Below, piece by piece: positions 29,948-58,421 of a stretch of 64,000 nucleotides of DNA; position 1 is the first letter of the stretch; the number at the start of each line of letters is the position of its first letter. Source of the stretch: Candidatus Cloacimonas acidaminovorans str. Evry (GTDB lineage: Bacteria; Cloacimonadota; Cloacimonadia; Cloacimonadales; Cloacimonadaceae); contig NC_020449.1 in assembly GCF_000146065.2 (NCBI RefSeq), positions 1,774,654 to 1,838,653 of the forward strand. Reading direction: 5' to 3'. Made by a program: the position numbers and the translations under genes. Under the pieces are notes generated by a model that saw only the letters and a list, made by a program, of their open reading frames with translations, did not search any database and was not told the origin of the DNA.

Positions 29948-30103
29948 TGTTAGTTCCTCCTGCATATATTTTAATTATATTTTTTTAAGTGTCTGACTGC
30001 GTATAATTTAGATAAGCATAATATATTCCAAGGGAGGAAAATAATGTTGGGAGGGTTGAGGTGGTTGAGAGGGTTGAGAAAGTTGAGAGGGTTGAGAAAA
30101 TTC
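29948..30103. other. Leader of the secreted-protein gene and GGTTGAG microsatellite
   Basis: Positions 30049-30100 are a microsatellite of GGTTGAG-type heptamers and nonamers, also seen at 19850-19890, 36225-36250 and 52140-52190. No gene is visible. Confidence 0.55.
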
Positions 30104-30788
30104 AACCCAAATAATGTAGTTGTGGAAAAAATGGGTTGGCAAATTATCTCTTTGCTAAATAGTTTGCAGAACACTGAAAAATAAATGTTCTCTATTTATG
30201 GCAAATTAGAATTCAGCAAACCAAATGCAAAATTTGTCTTTTCTGCTCAGGGTTAAAACCCGTTGTTAATGCCTGTCGTTCCTACGGAACTCTTTCTTAA
30301 CAAAAGAGATAAGTTGTTTTATATTTCTCTTTGCACCGGGTTAAAACCCGTTGTTAGTATCTGTCGTTCCTATGGAACTCTTTCTTAATAAAAGAGATAA
30401 GTTGTTTCATATTTCTCTTTGCACCGGGTTAAAACCCGTTGTTAATACCTGTCGTTCCTACGGAACTCATTGCAGGGTAATGAGATAATGGCTCTCTGAT
30501 GTTTTTCTTCACCGGGTTAAAACCCGTTGTTAATACCTGTCGTTCCTACGGAACTCATTCTTAACAAAAGAGATAAGTTGTTTCATATTTCTCTTTGCAC
30601 CAGGTTAAAACCCGTTGTTAATACCTGTCGTTCCTATGGAACTCTTTTTCTTTCATAGAGATATATTTTCGCCGGGTTAAAACTCGTCGTTATCTAACTG
30701 TCATTCCTACGGAATTTTTTTCTCCAATATATGATTAATGCATCTGGAAATAATATTAACCATTATTGCTGCTGTATTATTGGGGGTT
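30104..30788 (+). repeat. Composite repeat element E1: inverted-repeat ends enclosing six hairpin units
   Basis: The left end AACCCAAATAATGTAGTTG (30104) is matched in inverted orientation by AACCCCCAATAATACAGCAG (minus strand from about 30787). A left block of about 130 bases (ATGGGTTGGC... TCTATTTATGG... AGAATTCAGCAAACC) precedes the array. Six units start at 30251, 30339, 30427, 30515, 30603 and 30675 (spacings 88, 88, 88, 88, 72). Each unit has hairpin A CGGGTT-AA-AACCCG, hairpin B GTTCC-TAC-GGAAC and, in most, a third stem CTCTTT/AAAGAG. A right block of about 65 bases closes the element. The same ends occur at 54265-54855 and 58093-58421. Confidence 0.85.
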
Positions 30789-31608: not shown

Positions 31609-31993
31609 ATATTTTCTTGAGAACCGGGTAATCGCTTTGCTAAATTTTTCATACTATCTCCATATTCATAATATGTAAATAGCAGAAAAAATTCCGTAGG
31701 AAGGGCAGAAAAATAACGACGGGTTTTGAACCCGGCGAAAAATGGAGATTCTTAGCTAAAAAAAGTTCCGTTAAAATGACCGAACTGGTATTTTTAGAAT
31801 AAATTCCAAGTTTCTTGTCTGATAATTCATCCTGCTTTTTTTCCGAAAGATTTTTTATCCCTATTTTCTTTATCTGTCGTCCTACCGGGACTTTTTTCTC
31901 CTTCTTTTGCTTGTTTATTGCCTGGTTGAAACCCGTTGTAAACTGTTTTTTACCTTAAGATGCGTAATTGCTTGTTATATAGTTGATTAAGTA

Positions 31994-54143: not shown

Positions 54144-54264
54144 AGTATATTATTGTGTCAAGAAAAATCGTGTCCTGCACACTATTGAATTTTGCCAAAA
54201 TGGAATTCCGCATTCCAATTGCGAAATATGGTTCATAATTGAGCCAGTTGCATTGTTTAAGTTT
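54144..54264. other. Intergenic, nothing recognised
   Basis: AT-rich sequence between the barrel gene and element E2. No gene or clear signal was found. Confidence 0.4.
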
Positions 54265-54855
54265 AACCCAAATAATGCAGGAGAAATAATGGTTAATCTT
54301 ATTTCCCTAATCAGCAATTATATGTTGTAGTAAAAATTCCGTAGGAATGACAGATATTAACGACGGGTTTCAACCCGGCGAGTAAGAGGAGAATAAAAAA
54401 AAGGGCTCACGCAGATTTCGCAGATGACGCAGATTAAAAATGAGAATAGGTATGGGATGAAAAGGATAAAAGGGATTTACAAGATTTCGAATATCAGTTC
54501 CGTAGGAAAGACAGCTATTATAGAAGGGTTTCAACCCGGTGAAAAGAAAGCAGGAGAGTCATTATCTCCTTTTCCGAGAAAGAGTTCCGTAGGAACGACA
54601 GATATTAACAACGGGTTTCAACCCGGTGAAAAGAAAAGAACCTACAATACTATCTTTATTGGGGAAAAAAGTTCCGTAGGCACGACAGATAGTATAGAGA
54701 GGTTTTAACCTGGGAAAAATAATTCAAATTTATTATTTGGTTTACTGAATTCTGAGTTACCATAAATAGAGGACATATATTTTTCAGGTTTCTGCGAACT
54801 CTTTGGCAAAGAGGAAGTTGCCAACCCATTTTTCCTCAATTGTTTTATTTAAGTT
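54265..54855 (-). repeat. Composite repeat element E2: inverted-repeat ends enclosing four hairpin units
   Basis: Starts AACCCAAATAATGCAGGAG (54265) and ends, on the minus strand, AACTTAAATAAAACAATTG (54855). The TTCCGTAGG cores are at 54337, 54498, 54585 and 54672 (spacings 161, 87, 87). The long first interval contains an inserted ATCTGTG-family fragment (ACGCAGATTTCGCAGATGAC around 54402). The end blocks (TTATGGTAACTCAGAATTCA and GGGTTGGCAACTTCC on the minus strand) match E1. The boundary coincides with the stop codon of the LEA14-like gene. A short open frame at 54424-54708 is repeat read as protein. Confidence 0.85.
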
Positions 54856-58092: not shown

Positions 58093-58421
58093 AACTCAAA
58101 TAATGCCGTAGAAATAATGGTTAATATTATTTTGATATTCATTAATCATATATTGTAGCAAAAATTCCGTAGAACTGGCAGTTAGATAACTAAGGGTTTT
58201 AAACTGACGAAAAAATATCGCTACAAAAGAGAGATAATTCCATAGGAAAGACAGATATTTTAGAAGGGTTTTAACCCTGAGAAGATAAGACAAATTTACC
58301 TTTTTGGTTGCTGAATTCTGATGCGGCAAAAAAAAGTATAAATGTTTTTGTAGTTTTCTACGAACTCTTTGGCAAATAGGAAGTTGCCAACCCATTTTCC
58401 CGCAATTGCATTATTTGGAAT
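58093..58421 (-). repeat. Composite repeat element E3: inverted-repeat ends enclosing two hairpin units
   Basis: Starts AACTCAAATAATGCCGTAG (58093) and ends, on the minus strand, ATTCCAAATAATGCAATTG (58421). Two degenerate units lie at 58165 and 58238 (73 bases apart). The end blocks GGGTTGGCAACTTCC and AGAATTCAGCAACC (minus strand) are shared with E1 and E2. It looks like a shrunken version of the same element. Confidence 0.8.

Follow-up and report, generated by a model that had tools for sequence, protein, structure and literature searches.

Composite hairpin-array elements in Candidatus Cloacimonas acidaminovorans carry a REP-like repeat with a probable link to TnpA subclass 1.2

What are the three similar intergenic loci, each built around an array of short hairpins, that occur in a 64,000-nucleotide stretch of the Candidatus Cloacimonas acidaminovorans genome, and do the arrays belong to them? 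We call this stretch (positions 1774654-1838653 of the single 2,246,820-bp contig that was searched as the genome) the window, and positions refer to it unless marked as genomic. An earlier note had described the loci, E1, E2 and E3, as sharing both ends, as containing six, four and two copies of a two-hairpin unit, with E1 in one orientation and E2 and E3 in the other, and as lacking an open frame; it proposed a MITE-like element with an expandable hairpin array as cargo. The descriptive part of that proposal was borne out. A profile of the left end matched E1, E2 and E3 in a search of the whole genome with E-values of 5e-31, 1e-30 and 9e-28, respectively, so that the common ends are more than an AT-rich coincidence. 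The numbers and strands of the units were recovered with a covariance model (R1, the source of the bit scores below) and, for one decayed copy, a profile HMM. No reading frame of at least 120 aa lies over any of the three loci, and an Rfam scan of the window returned rRNAs and one tRNA only, with no match in E1-E3.

E1 occupies 30106..30785 on the plus strand and terminates in CCCAAATAATGT and ATTATTGGGG. Its left terminal inverted repeat and spacer (30106..30132), defined by sequence and aligned in 26 copies, are followed at 30133..30223 by an inner block (GGGTTGGC ... CAAACC) that matches a family profile (E=4.9e-7) and is a decayed copy of a repeat we call element A, whose family structure is backed by compensatory changes. 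The first unit lies directly after this left end, at 30246..30295 (69.9 bits), and further units follow on the same strand at 30334..30383 (77.3 bits), 30422..30471 (78.4 bits), 30510..30559 (78.4 bits) and 30598..30647 (71.0 bits). The sixth, at 30670..30720 (65.2 bits), is a variant (TTATCTAACTGTCATTCC) that also stands last in several other composites. The right end, with AATAATATTAACCATTATT and the terminal inverted repeat, was identified by profile match at 30718..30785 (E=3.9e-16). Unit spacing in E1 is 88, 88, 88, 88 and 72, and two linker types are mixed within the array, one of which recurs in an array at genomic position 1844k. A short run of GAGGGTTGAGAAAGTTGAGAGGGTTGAG-type repeats, a type also present beside other arrays, lies just before E1 (30040-30100), and a single unit outside the elements lies about 900 bp from E1, on the minus strand (31686..31737, 48.9 bits).

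The other two composites lie on the minus strand. E2 (54267..~54850) was delimited by the end profiles and outer repeats, its right boundary being set by eye; its units are at 54331..54380 (last-unit position, 73.2 bits), 54492..54541 (48.0 bits), 54579..54628 (79.0 bits) and 54666..54715 (first-unit position, adjoining the left end, 52.3 bits), spaced by 161, 87 and 87, and a copy of element A lies at 54738..54827 (profile E=4.2e-10). The spacing of 88 that had been read four times in E1, and of 87 twice in E2, is therefore reproduced by the covariance model positions. E3 (58095..58419), delimited by the end profiles and outer repeats, has a first unit at 58232..58281 (50.0 bits), the only one found there by the covariance model, and a decayed last unit at 58161..58202 that was found by the unit profile HMM (genome 1832814-1832855, E=3.3e-5). 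Directly adjoining E2, at 54180-54262, is a second decayed left-end-like sequence (CTTAAACAATGCAACTGGCTC..., minus strand).

E1-E3 are copies of a family of small, non-coding, MITE-like composite elements, a conclusion that the genome-wide distribution of the ends supports. The left-end profile has about 64 matches in this genome. Its first two hairpins contain 15 cells changed on both sides, versus 4 in shuffles; RNAalifold gave no consensus fold over the whole left end, and the left-end model (R2) is therefore sequence-only. The right end is common to eight loci at E<1e-8, every one of them beside a unit array. Outer repeats CCCAAATAATGC...GCATTATTTGGG are present in 13 elements with 0-4 mismatches per end, and their outermost positions are 30106-30785 in E1 and 58095-58419 in E3. 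Both ends and units are present in seven elements, whose lengths, where the two boundaries can be placed clearly, are 325 to 680 bp; six compact elements of about 160 bp (genome 1035k, 1248k, 1403k, 1725k, 1751k and 2061k) have both outer repeats and the left block with zero units. In 22 of the 48 arrays of the genome, a left end directly adjoins the first unit on its 5' side and shares its strand; in one array it lies elsewhere. These same-strand left ends, together with the seven two-ended and six unit-free elements, indicate that the composite is real. Furthermore, about ten copies have an identical end-unit junction (...TTTGTCTTTTCTTCTCAGGGTT) and first-unit variant (ACCCTTCTATAATATCTG), and several have a common last-unit variant (TTATCTAACTGYCATTCC) followed by the right end, a pattern characteristic of an element that has multiplied as one block. 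Among the left-end matches in this and the family genomes, we saw no autonomous partner with the same outer repeats.

The inner block of the left end, ATGGGTTGGCAA ... AGAATTCAG, is a separate, four-hairpin repeat family. Searches with the left-end profile revealed that relatives carry it as a compact repeat of about 90 bp, element A, which consists of GGG, four hairpins and CCC. In an alignment of 26 copies, pairing holds in 94.4% of cells; 113 cells are changed on both sides, compared with 36 in shuffles and 6-18 in slid versions. The fold could be made out only with these element A copies of relatives. Element A was found in 23 of 116 genomes, all of the same family, with 30 copies in G080 among the matches listed. 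It is dispersed in G021, G044, G080, G016 and G100 (for example, at L149:1501-1591). An 87-bp element A repeat occurs at 21 places in G080, most of which have unrelated flanks, and a target duplication is not evident; no recurrent transposase gene was present in the flanks of element A copies. In E1-E3, the left block is a decayed element A copy fused to the outer repeat.

Empty sites, which the earlier note had suggested looking for, were found for E2. Two species of the same genus, G002 and G029, lack this composite at the corresponding intergenic position: the site measures 728 bp here and 130 bp in G002, and 686 bp here and 24 bp in G029, the flanks being too diverged for an exact junction. 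The E1 site is uninformative, because the site in G002 is filled by about 1 kb of other sequence, of which G029 has a homologue at its own site, and the flanks of E3 in relatives are on separate contigs or at a contig end. None of the loci inspected in G002 or G029 contained a composite. Composite flanks in this genome are A/T-rich (e.g., TTTAA, TTAAA, ATAAA). A 5-bp target duplication is weakly supported: it is perfect in 5 of 13 elements, with a permutation p of 0.016 after boundaries were corrected by eye and of 0.22, not significant, with automatic boundaries. The composite has probably been mobile.

Whether the array is the cargo of this element is a separate matter. The unit is a REP-like sequence of about 50 nt with a TGTC-footed hairpin (5-bp stem, 3-nt loop) and a second hairpin, and the genome holds at least 120 of them in its 48 arrays. 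Across both hairpins, 95 cells have compensatory changes versus 23 in shuffled controls when the alignment is fitted to the structure, and a free alignment of the units of this genome gives 19 such cells versus 8 in shuffles. Half of the arrays (24 of 48) have no end at all, seven have both, and 15 have a left end with no recognisable right end. Species of the same genus also contain the unit (62 copies in G002, 111 in G029 and 31 in G100, with fewer elsewhere), and the arrays inspected in G002 and G029 have no composite ends, an observation that the earlier note had itself named as evidence against its reading. The array is a REP-like family in its own right and not private cargo of the composite, given the end-free arrays here and in these species. 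Thus, the observation in the earlier note was right and its interpretation half right: an inverted-repeat composite family exists, with two-ended, junction-sharing and compact unit-free copies, but its array is not peculiar to it. That the array is expandable also finds support, since at one shared place G002 has about 2.7 units (L105) and G029 has one (L107), and unit number therefore changes between species. Inspected arrays in relatives run head to tail with a period of 67-75 bp, and their linkers are alike inside one array and unlike between arrays and genomes. At three genomic positions (803150, 657830 and 1921860; L071:1990, L053 and L033), an IS-end-like sequence, GGGGCTGTC(C/T)C..., starts after CTGTC in three separate units; the identical position looks as if an insertion sequence targets the unit. 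The L071 copy precedes an ORF that we take to resemble an IS1182-type transposase.

The units also accompany a gene for a Y1 transposase. A search with PF01797 found three Y1 genes in this genome, which are unlike, none being a close copy of another; an IS200/IS605 insertion sequence with a mobile, multi-copy tnpA was considered as a candidate and rejected. The best of the three (genome 802675-803019) has one in-frame TAG ahead of the catalytic-motif region. Two outward-pointing units lie just before it (802519-802641) and one just after it (803129), the latter cut by another insertion. In G100, a homologue that is intact at 150 aa and shares 66% identity over 108 aa lies amid such units, and in record L219 a Y1 gene has four units before it and six after. 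L219 (MWEH01000182.1), which comprises a complete unit-tnpA-unit locus and whose protein is 61% identical to that of G100, is titled Firmicutes bacterium ADurb.Bin080, a bin name that may be wrong. The protein scores above the cut-off of the IS200/IS605 transposase model NF033573 (69.5 bits, cut-off 55) and far below that of the REP-associated tyrosine transposase model NF047646 (23.8 bits, cut-off 80). The Y1 core is that of PF01797, every complete Cloacimonadota homologue that we read has a Y...Q..HH motif, and Y---Q--HH is the signature of TnpA subclass 1.2 (Quentin 2018, PMC6006769). The unit-flanked enzyme would accordingly belong to subclass 1.2, as assigned by motif and by NCBIfam and Pfam scores. 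We found no subclass 1.2 gene in G002 or G029, despite their 62 and 111 units, and we count this, with the TAG in the gene of this genome, against our explanation below as regards current activity. The genome has a second subclass 1.2-like Y1 gene (L072, genome 681480-684812), also broken by a stop, which is flanked by a different repeat family (AAGCCCGTAGGGCGACACAATGATAGCGATGGGTGTG...) that recurs beside several arrays.

The pairing of such genes with hairpin repeats extends beyond this organism. Of 28 loci in Cloacimonadota, 16 exceed the 95% level of mismatched pairs in inverted repeats between one flank of the gene and the other, most of the others have direct repeats across the flanks, and repeats within a flank exceed shuffles in 27. 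A scan of a genome collection with an alignment of the Cloacimonadota proteins yielded 585 relatives, from which the best 80 were taken, 71 with usable flanks. Repeats common to both flanks were present in 55 of these 71 loci, from about ten phyla, versus 5% of mismatched controls, and the Y---Q--HH motif was present in 68. Within 400 bp of the gene, hairpins with a 5-bp stem and a 3-nt loop have a density of 11.3 per kb, which falls to 1.1 per kb at a distance of 1.2-2.4 kb; when followed by GRYA, the corresponding densities are 2.24 and 0.08 per kb, an enrichment of the foot that is descriptive, since the pattern was noticed in the same data as were counted. In the complete genome of Desulfonema magnum, the repeat cognate to its gene has 469 copies (at most three mismatches) and the reversed pattern has 0. 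These copies form head-to-tail runs (50-52 bp), several of which adjoin the Y1 gene. The unit is often two-hairpin in Planctomycetota, Verrucomicrobiota and Zixibacteria, with TAG or GTAG before the second hairpin. A strict two-hairpin pattern had no match in five further genomes of other phyla, which indicates that the shared grammar is loose. In the literature searched, beyond whose reach most subscription journals lie, we found no later paper on the substrate of subclass 1.2.

Taken together, we consider it quite likely that E1-E3 are a non-autonomous composite assembled from repeat families of separate origin, namely a MITE-type pair, element A and a REP-like array tied to a Y1 transposase, with the array captured and then multiplied. 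As part of this explanation, a Y1 HUH transposase of TnpA subclass 1.2 would have the unit as its cognate repeat. In the model for IS200/IS605 and TnpA-REP enzymes, the Y1 protein recognises single-stranded DNA folded into a hairpin that has a tetranucleotide foot, and makes its cut alongside (PMC8266576); by analogy, the foot here would be TGTC, before GTTCCTACGGAAC, where the enzyme presumably cleaves the unit. Most likely, the subclass 1.2 enzyme would copy or amplify the unit in folded single-stranded form, in the manner proposed for TnpA-REP and IS200/IS605 enzymes, and the head-to-tail arrays may lengthen or shorten through tandem duplication and exchange. The MITE-type inverted-repeat pair would have inserted in A/T-rich targets with element A as the core of its left end; one array may then have been captured by this element-A-bearing MITE, and the composite multiplied in the lineage of this genome, spread by a putative transposase that would read the outer repeat. 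The lack of an autonomous partner among the left-end matches and the weak target duplication weigh against this account, as do the counting of the footed-hairpin pattern in the data where it was noticed and the absence of strict two-hairpin matches in the five further genomes.

Several other readings were weighed against this composite. The one that comes closest, in which MITE halves were repeatedly inserted beside independent REP-like clusters and no single composite ever spread, would account for the end-free half of the arrays and for the 15 that have a left end alone, and REPs are known targets of other insertion sequences (PMC3733652). It nevertheless seems unlikely, because the left end keeps the same side and strand, about ten copies share one junction and first-unit variant, and the last-unit variant and right end recur. 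It is very improbable that array and ends are together the decayed remains of one larger IS200/IS605-like insertion sequence that lost its gene. The NCBIfam score of the enzyme as IS200-family and the units flanking the Y1 gene fit such an origin, but there are compact copies with ends and no units, half of the arrays are end-free, and the Y1 loci that were retrieved contained no element A.

The hairpins could instead be kept because the array or composite is transcribed as a non-coding or regulatory RNA. The strong compensatory changes in the units and element A and the intergenic position of E1-E3 are what a structured RNA would produce, yet pairing of single-stranded DNA yields the same covariation. 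This reading is rather improbable in view of the lack of an Rfam match, the differing orientation of E1-E3 relative to neighbouring genes, the variation of arrays in number and linker in dozens of unrelated places, and the presence of arrays on both sides of a gene for a single-strand-DNA transposase. A CRISPR or CRISPR-like array of 46-nt repeats and spacers of about 41 nt is suggested by the period of 87 or 88 in 47 of 75 same-strand gaps between units, which fits the repeats of up to 46 nt that CRISPRdigger reported for Ca. Cloacamonas acidaminovorans (PMC5011713). This is scarcely credible, because the "spacers" recur inside and between arrays and so are not unique, the unit also occurs as single copies and beside the transposase gene, and relatives have another period (67-75). 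The composite of captured repeat families is the reading we retain.

The composite itself is made of known kinds, and the larger result is a REP-like family linked to TnpA subclass 1.2. On balance, it seems probable that this subclass, so far an orphan HUH class, drives a second, widespread kind of REP system, with a 5-bp stem, a 3-nt loop, a TGYC or TATC foot, often a second hairpin, and long head-to-tail arrays, in Bacteroidota, Ignavibacteria, Planctomycetota, Verrucomicrobiota, Zixibacteria, Desulfobacterota, Cloacimonadota and others, whose units can be captured and further spread by MITEs, as in E1-E3. An orphan transposase class would in this way gain a candidate substrate. In most of the loci examined, from about ten phyla, its genes lie amid hairpin repeats, unlike the description in the defining paper. 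The same repeats may explain regular arrays misread by CRISPR finders, as the published 46-nt repeats of this organism suggest, and E1-E3 illustrate one mobile repeat family carried inside another.

Among known systems, bacterial MITEs (RUP, NEMIS, ERIC and Nezha, among others; PMC3733652) are similar in being non-coding, multi-copy and intergenic with inverted-repeat ends, whereas the elements described here also hold two further repeat families, one as a variable array and the other as one copy. TIRtrons and the mosaic TIRs of Pseudomonas (Di Nocera 2013, PMC3733652) likewise join degenerate REP units to unrelated stem-loops in larger repeats, but they flank RAYT genes, whereas the composite here is gene-free, and the Y1 locus yielded no copy of it. 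CGTC-tagged REPs (Di Nocera 2013, PMC3733652), which were reported without a dedicated transposase, resemble the unit in having a CGTC or TGTC foot by a palindrome and occur in Chlorobi and Bacteroidetes; compared by description, their stems measure 8-9 bp and their loops 4-5 nt, as opposed to 5 bp and 3 nt here.

The closest parallels are in the REPtrons formed by REP/BIME sequences and TnpA-REP (RAYT) genes (Nunvar 2010, PMC2817692; Di Nocera 2013, PMC3733652; Quentin 2018, PMC6006769; PMC8266576), in which short, high-copy intergenic palindromes form tandem clusters and flank a single-copy Y1 HUH gene on both sides, often inverted. REPtrons have a class 2 enzyme with a Y---NP motif and a GTAG foot, whereas here the enzyme would be of subclass 1.2 (Y...Q..HH) and TGTC, TGCC or TATC precedes the 5-bp/3-nt hairpin (TGTC in the unit of this genome), although in some loci of Planctomycetota and Verrucomicrobiota GTAG does precede the second hairpin. 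In addition, the units here have two hairpins and form long head-to-tail arrays with an 87/88-bp period. TnpA subclass 1.2 as published (PMC6006769) matches the genes found here in its Y---Q--HH motif, length of about 150 aa, low copy number, IS200-like core and presence in Bacteroidota. It was described as low-copy, without IS properties, and mostly from Cyanobacteria and Bacteroidetes. Its members were also said to be generally without terminal IS200 structures, a descriptive remark rather than a class criterion, whereas the genes described here, from Cloacimonadota and other phyla, are flanked by abundant hairpin repeats.
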